From contig JAJXZL010000036.1 of the NCBI GenBank assembly GCA_021780075.1, positions 62,001 to 126,000 of the forward strand: DNA of 64,000 nt, given 5' to 3'. Shown in pieces: positions 4,070 to 56,421 of this stretch (the first letter of the stretch is position 1; every line of letters starts with the position of its first letter). The notes under the pieces were generated by a model. It made no database searches, was not told where the DNA came from, and saw only the letters and a list, made by a program, of their open reading frames with translations. This DNA is from Acidobacteriota bacterium. Its GTDB lineage: Bacteria; Acidobacteriota; Terriglobia; Terriglobales; Acidobacteriaceae. The position numbers and the translations under genes are program-made.

Positions 4070-4195
4070 GACCGAGGACGAGTGGCCAGCGGCCAGAGGA
4101 AGCAAGGCAGGTTCTCCCACAAAGAATGAGTACCCCAGGCGCCTCGCATTGGGGCATACGGGATCAGCAGGGGGAAACCACAAACCTCCCAGCCA

Positions 4196-4394
4196 CTTCA
4201 AAAATTCCTCCGCCCAATTTGCAGGGTATTTCTCCGCTTAGGCGCACAATGGAAAGTGTGTCGGAAATCCGCAACCGGCCCATGCCGTGCCAGTCGGATC
4301 ACGGCCCCCTGATTCGTGGACGGGTACCCCCCCTACCCCCCCCCACCCCCCCTTTGAAAAGGATTTGCGGTTTTCCACAAAAAGTTTGCAGATC
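4196..4394. repeat. dispersed ~199-bp element, copy 1 (C-tract strand)
   Basis: Nearly identical in reverse complement to 50120-50318. Shared landmarks in order: CGCCCAATTTGCAG, TCTCCGCTTAGGCGCACAAT (the other copy reads TCGGCGCACAAT), AAAGTGTGTCGGAAATCCGC, CCGGCCCATGCCGTGCCAGT, a long C-tract near 4326-4352, then GGATTTGCGGTTTTCCACAA and AGTTTGCAGAT. There is no open frame and no terminal transposase. The minus strand has several long G-runs with G-quadruplex potential. This element fills most of the gap 4070-4497. Confidence 0.8.
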
Positions 4395-4497
4395 ATTTCG
4401 CAGTGCGCCATCCGGTGCGCCGCCGCAGCCCGCAATCATCGCTGCAAACGGGCACACCGCAGCCTTCGCTTGCTATGGATTCGGTTTTGCGCAGATT

Positions 4498-29989: not shown

Positions 29990-30248
29990 ACAAGCTCCTT
30001 AATGTGGAACGCCAGAACTCTATTTCCTTACCTGCGCATGTCCCGGTGTGAAAGCATTCTCAGGCAGAAGTGAGCACTATGTCCATGAAAATCCCCCGCA
30101 TCGAGGCCGTCTGAACGTTACTTGCGGGAGTGACCCGATGGGCATTGCGCCCAGGGTCCTGAAGGGGCATACCCTACCCGCTATTCATTTTTGTGAATTA
30201 AAGAAAGTTTGCAGATCATTCCGCAGCGCATTCCCGCAAGCCTTCGCC
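29990..30248. repeat. intergenic region with a partial dispersed repeat
   Basis: A stretch near 30208-30235 (AAGTTTGCAGATCATTCCGC) matches 4382-4401 next to dispersed-element copy 1 (one mismatch) and then diverges. The rest holds no gene that I can support. Confidence 0.5.
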
Positions 30249-48010: not shown

Positions 48011-49603
48011 ATGAGTCCGGCCGATTCCGCCGCATCCGCCGGACTCCTCGCGCAAAGCATTGAAGAGTATCTGGCCGAGCACCCGGCAGCCGCCGTGCTT
48101 GAGGACGGCAGGGTGCTGTTTGACATGCGCATCGCCCGCTATGCGGTGAGCGAGTCGCATGGGCGCTGCCTGCTGCAACTGTGGAGCGAGGAGCGCAACC
48201 TGATGCGCACGGTGGTGGAGGTGCAGCAGCGCACGCATTGCCTGCGCCTGTTGACCCGCCGCCTGGGCGCGGCCAAGCCGCAAGCGCTGGAACTGGTGCC
48301 CACCAGCGATCGCCGCACACCCACGGCGCGCGACGCCGCACGGCGCAACTATCAGCGATTGCTGGAACGCGTGCTGACACGCACCTTTATCGGTTCAAAG
48401 GTGGACGGGATGCGTTCGGCGATGGACCTGGAGCATAGCTTTGGGCCCGCTTATACGCGCGGGCGACTGCTGCGCGGCACGGCGGCAGAGGCGGTTATCG
48501 GCGTTGGCGAAGCGGAGTCCGGGGCCACGGTGGACGGCATTCTTACGCTGGGCATTCTGTGGCTCGACTACTGCCGCCAGCATGGCGATGGGCGACGCCA
48601 CTTTGGCGGGCTCAAGGTGATTGTGCCCGCCGGCGCATGGCGCACGGCAGCGGAGCGGATGGCATGGCTGAACCACGCCGCCGCCGACTTTCAGCTTTTC
48701 ACGCTGGACGAGCGCAGCGAAGAACTCGCCCCGGTTGATTTTCGCGATACAGGCAATCTTGAGTCTCGGCTGGTGCATGCCTTTTCTGGCGATGCCGCCA
48801 TTGAGCGCTGCCGGGCAGGCATCGACCGGCTACTCGAGTTGACGCCGCCAGCGGCGAGAGAGCGCATCGAAATCAGGCCGCGTTCAGCCGCTGAGGTGGC
48901 GCTGCTGCTGCACGGACTTGAGTTTGCGCGCGTGCGCCATGGTGCGGCGGCGCACTCGTTTGCCCGCGAGGAGGAAATCACTTTTGGCGCGGGGGCCAAT
49001 GCAACTCCGCTGACCGGGGAGAACGAGGCGCTGTGTCGCGAGCTGTTCGCGCGGCTCTTCCTCAGTCGCCACGCCGACGGCATGCGCACGGATGCGCTTT
49101 TTCGATTGCAGCCGGAGCGATGGCTGGAATCACGGCTGCGCTGCGACATCACTGAGCTGCTTCCCAGCTTGCGCGGCGACCTGATATATACGCAGGTGCC
49201 CGCGCTTTCGTCGGGCGACCGGGGCATGCTGGACCTGCTCACGCTCGATCGCAACGGACGCCTGACGGTGATGGAGATCAAGGCGGATGAAGACCTGCAC
49301 CTGCCCCTGCAGGCGCTGGACTACTGGATTCGCGTACGCGCTCTGAATGAAGACCGCAAGCCCGCCGCTGGCAATAGCAGGCCGCTTTCAGCCTTCGAAA
49401 GCCAGGGGTACTTTGCCGGCGCGGAGGTTTCTCCGCTTACGCCGCGCCTGCTGCTGGTCGCTCCGGCACTGCGGATTCATCCCGCCAACGAGCAGGTGCT
49501 GCGCTACTTCTCACCGCAGGTAGAGTGGGAACTGATTGCACTGAGCGAGCATTGGCGGCGGGAACTGAGGGTCGTATTCCGGAAGCGCAACGGGGACCGG
49601 TAG
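48011..49603 (+). CDS. large conserved protein with C-terminal PD-(D/E)XK-like nuclease domain
   Basis: Encodes 530 aa, no signal peptide. The N-terminal 370 residues are unrecognised, with LLQLWSEERNLMRTVVEV and GTAAEAVIGVGEAESGATVD. The C-terminal ~150 residues carry GMLDLLTL, then TVMEIKADEDLHLPLQALDYW, i.e. D...ExK followed by QxxxY, the pattern of PD-(D/E)XK nucleases. It follows the YfiT-like gene with 9 bases between. A nucleic-acid role is likely; the substrate is unknown. Confidence 0.7.
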   Translation: MSPADSAASAGLLAQSIEEYLAEHPAAAVLEDGRVLFDMRIARYAVSESHGRCLLQLWSEERNLMRTVVEVQQRTHCLRLLTRRLGAAKPQALELVPTSDRRTPTARDAARRNYQRLLERVLTRTFIGSKVDGMRSAMDLEHSFGPAYTRGRLLRGTAAEAVIGVGEAESGATVDGILTLGILWLDYCRQHGDGRRHFGGLKVIVPAGAWRTAAERMAWLNHAAADFQLFTLDERSEELAPVDFRDTGNLESRLVHAFSGDAAIERCRAGIDRLLELTPPAARERIEIRPRSAAEVALLLHGLEFARVRHGAAAHSFAREEEITFGAGANATPLTGENEALCRELFARLFLSRHADGMRTDALFRLQPERWLESRLRCDITELLPSLRGDLIYTQVPALSSGDRGMLDLLTLDRNGRLTVMEIKADEDLHLPLQALDYWIRVRALNEDRKPAAGNSRPLSAFESQGYFAGAEVSPLTPRLLLVAPALRIHPANEQVLRYFSPQVEWELIALSEHWRRELRVVFRKRNGDR

Positions 49604-50059: not shown

Positions 50060-50119
50060 GCAAGCTGGATGCTGAAGGCGCGCGGCGCGTGCGGCGGACG
50101 TTTCACAGGTCTCCTCAAT

Positions 50120-50318
50120 CATCTGCAAACTTTTTGTGGAAAACCGCAAATCCTTCTCAAAGGGGGGTGGGGGGGTAGGGGGTACCCTTCCACGGATCAG
50201 GGGTTCGTGATCCGACTGGCACGGCATGGGCCGGTTGCGGATTTCCGACACACTTTCCATTGTGCGCCGAAGCGGAGAAATACTCTGCAAATTGGGCGCA
50301 GGATTTTTTGAGGGGCTG
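50120..50318. repeat. dispersed ~199-bp element, copy 2 (G-tract strand, inverted to copy 1)
   Basis: Reverse complement of 4196-4394 with few differences. It begins ATCTGCAAAC, carries G-runs at about 50160-50183 (several runs of 5-7 G, G-quadruplex potential) and ends CAAATTGGGCG. Length matches copy 1. No coding capacity and no terminal target duplication that I can define by eye. Confidence 0.8.
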
Positions 50319-50390
50319 GGTGAGGTCTGCCGGATGCTCATCCGATTCTGTGGCTGGGAGAGAAAAGAGGGGATGGTGAAGGTGGATTCC

Positions 50391-50415
50391 CAGGTGCCCA
50401 AAAGCGAGGCACCTG
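50391..50415. repeat. REP-like palindrome left of the transposase remnant
   Basis: CAGGTGCC (50391-50398) pairs with GGCACCTG (50408-50415), 9-base loop. It sits about 60 bases from the transposase remnant and shares the GGTGCC theme of nearby REP-like stems. Confidence 0.6.
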
Positions 50416-50476
50416 GGGCAACCATCTTCAGTGGTGGGACCCACTTTGTAATCCCGGCACCTGGGCCAGCCCCCAG

Positions 50477-50554
50477 CGGCTGCCTGCGAAAGCAACTGAA
50501 GGTGATGAAGTGAAATGCACCGGCTTTCTGGTAACGGACGAGTTTGCCCTTCAT
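50477..50554 (-). pseudogene. remnant of a REP-associated tyrosine transposase (RAYT)
   Basis: A start ATG at 50554 opens a frame reading KLVRYQKAGAFHFITFSCF, which is the usual N-terminus of RAYT (IS200/IS605-like Y1) transposases. Similarity stops after 26 residues (FRRQP) and the frame continues into repeat sequence with no HUH motif. It is a truncated, inactive gene end. Confidence 0.75.
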
Positions 50555-50583
50555 GAAGAAGAACGAGTGTACGTGGTTCCCAC

Positions 50584-50610
50584 CCTTTCGGCCAACCGCA
50601 GGCCGAAAGG
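50584..50610. repeat. REP-like palindrome right of the transposase remnant
   Basis: CCTTTCGGCC (50584-50593) pairs with GGCCGAAAGG (50601-50610), 7-base loop. Imperfect pairing extends outwards (GGTTCCCA with TGGGGCACC). This is the form of REP elements mobilised by RAYT. Confidence 0.75.
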
Positions 50611-50729
50611 ATGGGGCACCCGCCTCGGCATCGCGCTTTCCCGTCCGGTCACGAGCTTACCGCCAACACCCGCTCATCGCAAAAAACGCGATGAACGGGG
50701 CACAGCTTCTTCCATCTCTGTGCATCGAT

Positions 50730-53942: not shown

Positions 53943-56120
53943 CTACTTTTTGAGTGGTTTTTTGGCGAAGTAGTAGAGCGAGTAGGCGAGCATGGCGAAG
54001 GCGAGGACGGAGACCCACGAGTGATCGAGGAAGGTGTGGGGGAAGTTGAGGATGTCGCCTTTGTCGAAGGTGGTTTCGTAGCCCTTGAGGGCGACGCCGA
54101 GGAGGCCGACGATGCCGCCGGCGGCGATGAGTCCTGAGGCGTAGAGGGAGCCGGGAGAGATTTCGCTATCGGTGGCGGCTTCGCCGGATTTTTTGGCGGC
54201 CTGATCGATGAACCAGCGGACCATGCCTCCGACGAAGATGGCGAGGGTGGTGCCGATGGAGAGGTAGGCTCCGACGGCGAAGGAGAGCGAGCGGATGCCG
54301 AGCAGCTCAACGGCGATGACGAGAAAGACGCCGAGCATGACGAGTCCCCAGGGGAGCTTGCGGCTGAGGATGCCATTGATGACGGTGGCCATGAGGCGGG
54401 CCTGCGGGGCGGCGGCCTTTTCGCTGCCGATGCCCTGGATCCACTGCACCTCAATCTGCCCGGTGGCGGGCGAGTAGAGGTATTTGCCGTCGGCCAGCTC
54501 GGGCGAGCCGAGGGCGTTGAGGACGACGTACTCGCTCTTGTGGCGGAGGGTTGAGGCGTTGTTGGGGCCGAGGACGGGAAACTGGTCGGGGAGGTGGCGG
54601 GTGTCGTTTTGGACGGCGACGCCGGGATGCGGTGCGGTGAGGCTCCAGGGCTTGGCGATGGCGCGGAACTCCTGAAGGCCGGTGTTCATGAGGTTGAGGG
54701 TGAAGCCGATGGCGATGGTGGAGACGACGACGCCGATCATGAGGGCGATCTGCTGGAGGCGCGGGGTGGAGCCGACGATGTAGCCGGTCTTGAGGTCCTG
54801 CGAGGTGTCGCCTGCGTTGGCCGCGGCGATGCAGACGACGCCGCCGATGGTGATGGCGAGCGCGCCGAAGGCGGGGCTGGTCCAACCCTTGACGAGGAAG
54901 ATGGCAGACGTGGCCATGAGGGTGGCGATGGTCATGCCGGAGATGGGATTGGCGGAGCTGCCGATGAGGCCGACGATGCGCGAGCTGACGGTGACGAAGA
55001 GGAATCCGAAGAGGACGACGAGGAGCGAAGCAGCGAGGTTGGCTGCCCAGCCGACGTAGGCGCCGGGCACGGGCTTGAACTGGAGAAAGAAGAACATGAA
55101 GGCGACGAGGAGGATGGAGCCGAGGACGACGACGCGCATGGAGAGGTCGTTCTCAGTGCGCAGGGGCTGGGCGCTGGCGGCAGTGCGGGAACGGATGTTT
55201 TTGAAGCCGGAGGTGAGCGCGCCCAGGATGGTGGGGAGCGTTTTGATGAGCGTGATGAGGCCCGCGGCGGCGACGGCTCCGGCGCCCATGGGGCGGATGT
55301 AGGTGGCCCAGAGATCGCTGGGGCCCATCTGCGCAATGGGAACTGTGCCGGGGTAGATGGGGTGCGGGAGTTCCTTGCCGAAGAAGTAGATGAGCGGCAT
55401 GAGGACGAGCCAGGAGAAGACGCCTCCAGCGAAGATGACGCCGGCGACTTTGGGGCCGATGATGTAGCCGACGCCGAGGTATTCCGGTGTGGCGTCGGCC
55501 TTGATGGAGGCGCCTTTGAGGATGTGCGCGGGGCCGAAGTCGGGCTGGTACTCGGGCGTAGCGGGCCAGGCTTTGAAGATGTTTTCGTTCTGGAAGAGGG
55601 TGTAGAGCGCGCCGAGGCCGAGACCGAAGAAGACGCGGCTGGCAAGGCCGCCACCGCGCTCGCCGGCCATAAGGACGTCAGCGCAGGCGGTGCCCTCAGG
55701 GTACGTCAGGTTGCCGTGCTCCTCGACGATGAGCTGGCGGCGGAGGGGAATCATGAAGAGCACGCCCAGCCAGCCACCGATGAGGGCGAGAAGGAAGATG
55801 CGGGAGTACTCGAGATCGAAGCCGAGGAAGATGAGCGCGGGCAGGGTGAAGATGACTCCGGCGGCGATGGACTGGCCTGCGTTGCCGGTGGTCTGGACGA
55901 TGTTGTTTTCAAGGATGGAGGCGCGGCCGAGGACACGCAGAATGCTGATGGAGAGCACCGCGATGGGAATGGAGGCGGCGACGGTGAGCCCGGCGCGCAG
56001 GCCGACGTAGACGGTGACGGCGCCGAAGATGATGCCGAAAAGCGAGCCGAGCAAAATGGCGCGGAGGGTGAACTCGGGGCGGGTCTCGGACGGCGGAACA
56101 AAAGGCTGAAAGTCGGGCAT
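53943..56120 (-). CDS. OPT-family oligopeptide transporter
   Basis: Encodes 725 aa with about 15 helices. LRAILLGSLFGIIFGAVTVYVGLRAGLTV, SIPIAVLSISILR, NIVQTTGNAGQSIAAGVIFTLPALIFLG, LIVEEHGNLTYPEGTACADVL (conserved OPT helix) and GYIVGSTPRLQQ are typical. It is a proton-coupled importer of peptides or metal-chelates; the substrate is unknown. ATG at 56120 with GGAGGC before it; the N-terminal 30 residues of the longer frame are rejected. Confidence 0.93.
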   Translation of the reverse strand: MPDFQPFVPPSETRPEFTLRAILLGSLFGIIFGAVTVYVGLRAGLTVAASIPIAVLSISILRVLGRASILENNIVQTTGNAGQSIAAGVIFTLPALIFLGFDLEYSRIFLLALIGGWLGVLFMIPLRRQLIVEEHGNLTYPEGTACADVLMAGERGGGLASRVFFGLGLGALYTLFQNENIFKAWPATPEYQPDFGPAHILKGASIKADATPEYLGVGYIIGPKVAGVIFAGGVFSWLVLMPLIYFFGKELPHPIYPGTVPIAQMGPSDLWATYIRPMGAGAVAAAGLITLIKTLPTILGALTSGFKNIRSRTAASAQPLRTENDLSMRVVVLGSILLVAFMFFFLQFKPVPGAYVGWAANLAASLLVVLFGFLFVTVSSRIVGLIGSSANPISGMTIATLMATSAIFLVKGWTSPAFGALAITIGGVVCIAAANAGDTSQDLKTGYIVGSTPRLQQIALMIGVVVSTIAIGFTLNLMNTGLQEFRAIAKPWSLTAPHPGVAVQNDTRHLPDQFPVLGPNNASTLRHKSEYVVLNALGSPELADGKYLYSPATGQIEVQWIQGIGSEKAAAPQARLMATVINGILSRKLPWGLVMLGVFLVIAVELLGIRSLSFAVGAYLSIGTTLAIFVGGMVRWFIDQAAKKSGEAATDSEISPGSLYASGLIAAGGIVGLLGVALKGYETTFDKGDILNFPHTFLDHSWVSVLAFAMLAYSLYYFAKKPLKK

Positions 56121-56421
56121 GAAAAGCCTCCAAAGCAACAGGAACAACCTGCGATGCAGCAATGACCCTGAAATGGGGAGTGTAGCAGCGCCGACGGCAG
56201 GCGTCACAGGGGCATTGTTGAAATGCCGCCGAGAGCACCTGTGCGCTGTACGCGCTGGTACTTCCTTTCCGTAGTGGCATAGCGGGCGGCAATTCTCTGC
56301 ACAATGGGCCAGGGATTTTTAGCGGGATTCCGGGTCTCAGAAGCGAGACTGGGGCGCCATTTTCGTGGCGGTCATATCTGCCGCCCGGCTCCCTGCGGAC
56401 GCGGCGATTTGCCTATTGCAT

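Follow-up and report, generated by a model that had tools for sequence, protein, structure and literature searches.

The 199-bp repeat that occurs twice in the analyzed DNA is one subfamily, with three members, of a larger diverged family whose matches are restricted, among the genomes searched, to one Acidobacteriota genus. As judged from sequence comparisons, this family is a unit dispersed between genes and associated with a small gene; the unit is absent from Rfam, and the gene family A to which it is linked is absent from Pfam and NCBIfam. Our reading, to which we give a probability of about 0.5, is that these repeats would be multicopy small transcription units, most of them stripped of their gene, that were spread or homogenised by recombination. 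The analysis established the architecture of the elements, their link with small genes, the retention of their boxes at shared sites and the sequence shared with a third copy located on contig C13. A search of titles and abstract openings, mostly of papers outside subscription, found no publication describing this repeat.

The window (the whole analyzed stretch of 64,000 nucleotides, C33:62001-126000 in a genome of 3.88 Mb and 53 contigs) carries two copies, delimited by genome search and HMM. Copy 1 extends from 4196 to 4400 on the + strand (left 4198-4260 and right 4329-4401 according to the HMM). Its left module (4198-4260, +) includes the box TTTGCAGGGTATTTC at 4218-4232 and CACAAT at 4245-4250; its C-tracts (4327-4352, +) are G-rich on the − strand, and the right module located 3′ of them (4360-4401, +) includes the box TTTGCAGATCATTTC at 4385-4399. 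Copy 2 (50116-50314, − strand) has its left module at 50249-50312 (−, HMM E-value of 1.8e-17) and part of its C-tracts with the right module at 50116-50182 (−), a region that shows G-tracts when read on the + strand. A preliminary description of this DNA had presented the two copies as near-identical and inverted. They are indeed inverted, but their arms are complementary at 91% (4198-4347 with 50162-50311) and 93% (4339-4397 with 50117-50175), so that “near-identical” holds only in the sense of about 92% identity. The partial copy placed near 30208 is real: it is a decayed right module (30202-30224, +) that retains the right end only, and the relative G122 has a full element at the same place. 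The proposed G-quadruplex potential is borne out by G4-type patterns on the − strand of copy 1 and on the + strand of copy 2, which carry the only double C- or G-tracts of the window. No called gene overlaps either copy, in agreement with the claimed absence of an open frame; however, gene-bearing relatives of these copies exist. A single left-module-like match, weak and doubtful, lies at 56280-56322 on the − strand (E-values of 1.4e-4 to 1.5e-4). Positions 1-505 of the window consist of a tandem repeat with a 160-bp period and three overlapping 185-nt copies, the others being 94-96% identical to the reference.

The repeat had also been described as dispersed, a view that fewer than three copies in the genome would have refuted, and the genome-wide search gives many more than three; nothing in these comparisons pointed to a known IS. 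With a 205-bp query, 39 places were matched at E ≤ 0.001 and full-length copies numbered three, at 100, 94 and 92% identity; most of the other places match it as two separate parts. The end motif TTTGCAGATCATTTC was found at 67 sites with up to two mismatches (19 exact) and at none in a control read backwards, a count far above chance. The modules were defined by the alignment of 35 left and 20 right parts and by the reading of loci. The left module comprises an A-rich stretch, TTTGCAGATnATTTCCCC, about eight free bases and GCACAATGGAAA (short form TTTGCAGATnATTTCCCC-n8-GCACAAT). The middle of the elements varies in both length and sequence and, since another repeat is present in many middles, apparently serves as a site where other repeats settle. 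C-tracts of the form CCCCCCTACCCCCC and similar separate this middle from the right module, which contains TTTTCCACAgAAAGTTTGCAGATnATTTC and ends with TTTTCCACARAAAGTTTGCAGATnATTTCG; in many G122 copies, GTGAAAC is found at a fixed distance 3′ of this end. By eye, a repeat of type TGTCAGGnATGTnCCCGGTCCGTAC directly precedes the C-tracts at L071, L074 and L065 and in several elements of G000, G115 and G122. Sequence models detected 60 left and 58 right matches in this genome at E ≤ 0.1. A right module lies downstream, on the same strand and no more than 700 bp away (gaps of 35-430), for 43 of the 53 best of the 60 left matches. No pairing with a different order or orientation was seen, and the 43 pairings take up 40 of the 46 best of the 58 right matches. 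Therefore, the genome harbors about forty two-module elements besides single modules.

The ends of both window copies carry direct repeats of one box, and neither copy contains an inverted repeat of 10 nt or more. No consensus fold and no shared base pairs were found for the left and right modules. The folding energies of 47 elements from G000 and G122, compared to shuffles, gave mean z-scores of −0.43 (C strand) and −1.05 (G strand). A structured RNA was thus rejected, the modules having no consensus fold and the 47-element set being similar to shuffles on the C strand. Copy 2 folds better than shuffles (z = −3.22), as do L002, L003, L006, L013 and, most of all, L159. Rfam gave no match at gathering score in the 64-kb window and, for 20 element loci, five matches at E ≤ 0.5, none of which overlaps an element when coordinates are compared. 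A short reading frame starting from the ATG after CACAA was also considered and discarded, as it is not conserved among copies (by eye).

The left module was found in 22 of 41 genomes, which correspond to 22 of the 25 members of the own genus and none of the 16 others. The right module was found in five of 150 genomes of the order, all belonging to the genus (five of the 16 genus members drawn). At E ≤ 1e-4, left-module matches number 46 in the own genome, at least 65 in G022 and 0-20 in the other relatives; since the scans of more than 40 genomes used stricter filters and a capped number of candidates, the numbers in relatives are minimum values. A pattern scan of named genomes returned 13 stretches; two Acidobacteriota MAGs account for 12 of them and a MAG labelled just “bacterium” for the other. 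In G022, another conserved 3′ part comes after the left module; this species-specific build with terminal G-tracts was recognized by eye in 17 of 20 loci (L121-L140). It contains two similar stretches ending with ATCTAATTTTT, then G-tracts on the left-module strand. An Acido-Lenti-1 RNA (RF01687) above gathering score lies about 300 bp from an element of G022 (L123:1220-1265), and a weaker match, at L161:701-746, is located about 190 bp from an element.

In several members of the genus, the left module precedes small genes. Those of family A encode proteins of mostly 105-180 aa and were found in 18 of 41 genomes, in the genus only and once in the own genome; those of family B, with zinc-finger-like cysteines, were found in 16 of 60 genomes, also in the genus only, and none in the own genome. 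None of 28 family A proteins matches any Pfam family at E ≤ 0.1 or NCBIfam; PDB gave no match at E ≤ 1 and PHROG only weak ones (E-values of 0.07-0.14). One query of phage and plasmid records found no relative of family A, and a search of IMG/VR reaching close relatives gave no confirmed one. Family B is perhaps a distant relative of family A, as weakly suggested by profile comparison (E-value of 5.9e-4, probability of 29%) and HMM (E-value of 1.7e-4); the family A HMM was built without L215 and L223.

Of 30 family A genes, 19 are preceded by the left module or its core and 11 are not; for family B, the corresponding numbers are 19 and eight of 27 genes, three of 30 loci having been dropped for not re-matching. 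C-tracts are present within 150 nt past the stop codon of 16 of the 30 family A genes and one of the 27 family B genes, compared to none of 45 window genes and two of 89 control genes; G-tracts follow the stop codon of one of the 30 family A genes. According to the HMM, the right module follows the family A gene at three of 30 loci. The sole family A gene found in the own genome (C6:34716-35042, −; 112 aa) is flanked by a left module (C6:35105-35156) on one side and by C-tracts with a right module (C6:34604-34675) on the other. Therefore, the same pair of ends occurs with and without a gene. At L194, a ribosome site and a start codon are found within about 35 bases past CACAAT. In G115, nine of 20 short elements retain a ribosome site of the GGAG type together with a start resembling those of family A, which reads MTEPIP... 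or MIEAIP... compared to, for example, MIEAIQPAT in family A; ten elements matched this pattern, L179 being excluded for its opposite strand. No family A gene was found in G022, whose genome is 65% complete. From the forms found at C6, in G115 and in G022, we infer that gene loss or replacement between retained signals seems to have occurred more than once.

Five family A genes, from four relatives, sit after a tyrosine recombinase gene (L204, L208, L209, L216 and L218; the integrase profile PF00589 was run on L218 alone), and no left module was found before these recombinase genes. The N-terminal part of the recombinase is encoded in another frame, with a slippery heptamer C CCA AAA at the junction in four of the five loci, a candidate for a programmed −1 frameshift.

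The placement of the elements among genes was analyzed with a simple codon-usage script for gene calling, on 42 distinct elements of the own genome (from 50 loci, the rest being duplicates or giving no match). None of the 42 lies inside a called gene, and one right-hand gene overlaps the end of an element by 15 bp. Of the 28 left neighbor genes that were called (14 were not), 23 point to the element (p = 0.0009). On the right side, 22 genes are convergent, 19 are co-oriented and one is uncalled; 14 of the 19 co-oriented genes start 75-133 bp past the element.

Some of these elements occupy sites that are shared with a related species. A flanking gene is common to nine of 20 G122 element loci and an own element locus (75-97% protein identity). 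Seven pairs were measured, L022/L148 (G122 locus cut by a contig end) and L003/L150 being excluded. In these pairs, the left and right boxes are 90 and 75% identical, compared to 38% for the middles and 52% for the upstream flanks; non-matching pairs gave 88 and 76% for the boxes and 40 and 52% for middles and flanks. For L010/L144, a wrong G122 left box was taken (distance of 790), so that its values for the left box (1.0) and the middle (0.05) are unsound; leaving this pair out gives means of about 0.88 for the left box and about 0.44 for the middle. These values suggest that the boxes are under selection at the shared sites. Selection keeping a consensus would be the simplest reading of the box identity, with repeated gene conversion as the alternative: since the boxes of unrelated elements are equally alike, gene conversion could mimic selection.

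The two window copies can be related to the third full-length copy. The C13 copy has a right-hand neighbor gene in common with the G122 element locus L153 (89% identity), and therefore probably predates the other two. Copy 2 and the C13 locus share 365 bp at 96.2% and 143 bp at 99.3% identity (window 50117-50616, −), a segment that includes a REP-like hairpin, a RAYT start and copy 2; about 1190 bp located between the shared parts at C13, including the remaining RAYT-like frame, are missing from copy 2. The RAYT-like reading frame of C13 is longer than the window fragment, but is broken by a stop. The window fragment (RAYT N-terminal part, 50471-50554, −), recognized by the amino-acid motif FHFITFSCFRRQPL alone, lies beside copy 2 because it came with the segment shared with C13, and is, on these alignments, a passenger outside the element. 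A RAYT motif or start was found near two of the 50 own loci (L002 and L003), both within this one copied segment. By eye, the hairpin beside the RAYT fragment is a sequence separate from the element, and REP-like hairpins adjoin several copies. Copy 1 shares 213 bp at 93% identity with C13 (window 4188-4400). The stretches that copies 1 and 2 share with C13 have their right limit at the same box and different left limits. Both window copies appear to be recent derivatives of the C13 copy or close kin; the direction in which the sequence was copied and the mechanism are presumed.

The gene beside copy 2 (48011-49603) has a G122 counterpart that also adjoins an element (L150), and copy 2 may thus have replaced, through gene conversion, an element that was already there. 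For the site of copy 1, the loci of 29 relatives contain no good box or tract, with only two box matches at three mismatches. No counterpart of copy 1 was found in G122, whose contig is collinear with the window from 49.6 to 22.0 kb, save one moved gene, and ends short of copy 1. Over the stretch covered by this contig, no inversion between the two window copies was seen. As gene order differs at this site, there is no clean empty site. No target-site duplication was seen at the compared loci, which do not keep synteny on both sides. The OPT transporter gene of the window (53943-56207) shows 92% DNA identity to G122, compared to 70-79% for neighboring stretches; in G122, it adjoins the element that is decayed at 30202-30224 in the window. 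This different placement indicates that the segment was moved or exchanged.

We propose that the left module is most likely a promoter, made of the box TTTGCAG, 20-21 nt and CACAAT, because CACAAT is followed at L194 by a ribosome site and a start codon. The gene-bearing unit would consist of the left module, a family A gene, often C-tracts and, in a few loci, the right module; the own genome retains one unit with its gene and about forty without. In the gene-less units, transcription from the left module would produce a short C-rich RNA crossing the C-tract, and the C-tract with the right module could be a transcript end or a processing signal. Rho can load onto C-rich RNA that lacks structure, and RNA polymerase can be halted by a G4 on the template strand. 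Selection would hold the boxes at their sites, and the copies would be spread and homogenised by recombining with one another, through gene conversion or segmental copying. The spacing of 20-21 nt, which is long for a sigma-70 promoter, counts against the promoter when compared to the sigma-70 consensus. Several observations also count against transcription units: (i) genes lacking the left module, the C-tract (14 of the 30 genes of family A and 26 of the 27 of family B) or the right module, (ii) the lack of a shared RNA structure and (iii) the different 3′ part of G022.

It is rather unlikely, in our opinion, that these repeats are instead non-autonomous (MITE-like) mobile elements, i.e. internally deleted versions of the gene-bearing form whose movement in trans would rely on their end boxes, these 15-bp direct repeats perhaps being the target of a tyrosine recombinase. 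The strongly species-dependent copy number, the direct repeats of one box at the element ends and the common right box at which the window copies terminate would fit such elements, but the left boundaries of these copies differ. The five family A genes behind a tyrosine recombinase gene point in the same direction; however, no left module precedes the recombinase genes and family A has no transposase match. Likewise, copy 1 is without a counterpart in the loci of 29 relatives and in G122, but neither a target-site duplication nor a clean empty site was found, gene order being different there. The flanking genes shared by nine of the 20 G122 element loci with own element loci also argue against mobility.

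More doubtful still is a DNA-level or terminator signal producing no RNA of its own, in which the boxes would bind a chromosome or transcription factor and the G4-capable tract would stop the transcription of the neighbor gene. The absence of own elements from called genes, the 23 of 28 left genes directed toward them, the C-tracts past family A stop codons and the G4-type patterns without RNA structure are all consistent with it. However, the left module precedes small genes in relatives, and the order of the two boxes is the same in gene-bearing and gene-less forms, which counts against this explanation since a terminator alone needs no two-box order. Finally, a REP-type repeat mobilised by RAYT transposases, as initially suggested from the RAYT start beside copy 2, is very improbable, even with the longer stop-broken frame at C13: the copies have no palindrome, the modules have no consensus fold, and a single shared segment explains the association.

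Whatever their origin, the elements are a high-copy intergenic repeat tied to a gene-bearing form, and their boxes persist at shared sites where the intergenic DNA around them can no longer be recognized as similar. If they are transcribed, a major soil phylum would possess a multicopy regulon of RNAs or small proteins that has no entry in Rfam or Pfam. If they are mobile, they would link direct-repeat boxes to a tyrosine-recombinase operon. Either reading would place G4-capable tracts at the end of a small transcription unit.

Some known systems resemble these elements in part. Like REPs and BIMEs, they are intergenic, dispersed and present in tens of copies; however, their boxes are direct and not inverted, they reach about 200 bp, and their link with RAYT is limited to one copied segment. 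RAYT-type transposases of Acidobacteria have already been published (PMC3733652). Like MITEs, the elements are short and multicopy, with ends common to a longer gene-bearing form. In contrast to MITEs, they have no terminal inverted repeats and no target-site duplication was seen, their inner gene encodes no recognized transposase, and their boxes are kept at shared sites. CIN1 loci (cuckoo RNAs) have a C-rich motif, gene-less copies and hairpins with C-rich loops. In Alphaproteobacteria, these loci are described (PMC10253847) as a small DUF1127 gene with its own promoter, co-transcribed with CcsR sRNAs. The likeness to the CIN1/CcsR loci would be a small-protein gene with a promoter tied to short RNAs, which is here predicted from sequence. 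However, family A lacks DUF1127 or any Pfam match (0 of 28 proteins), the elements have no shared hairpins and belong to a different phylum, and their right module carries a second copy of the left box. Membership in CIN1 was rejected on the protein family and on the hairpins. A tentative and, as a whole, rather unlikely scenario is that a small orphan-gene cassette with some relatives in tyrosine-recombinase operons lost its gene in several species of the genus and became dozens of dispersed promoter and C-tract units making C-rich regulatory RNAs, and that these units would be convergent with the cuckoo RNAs.
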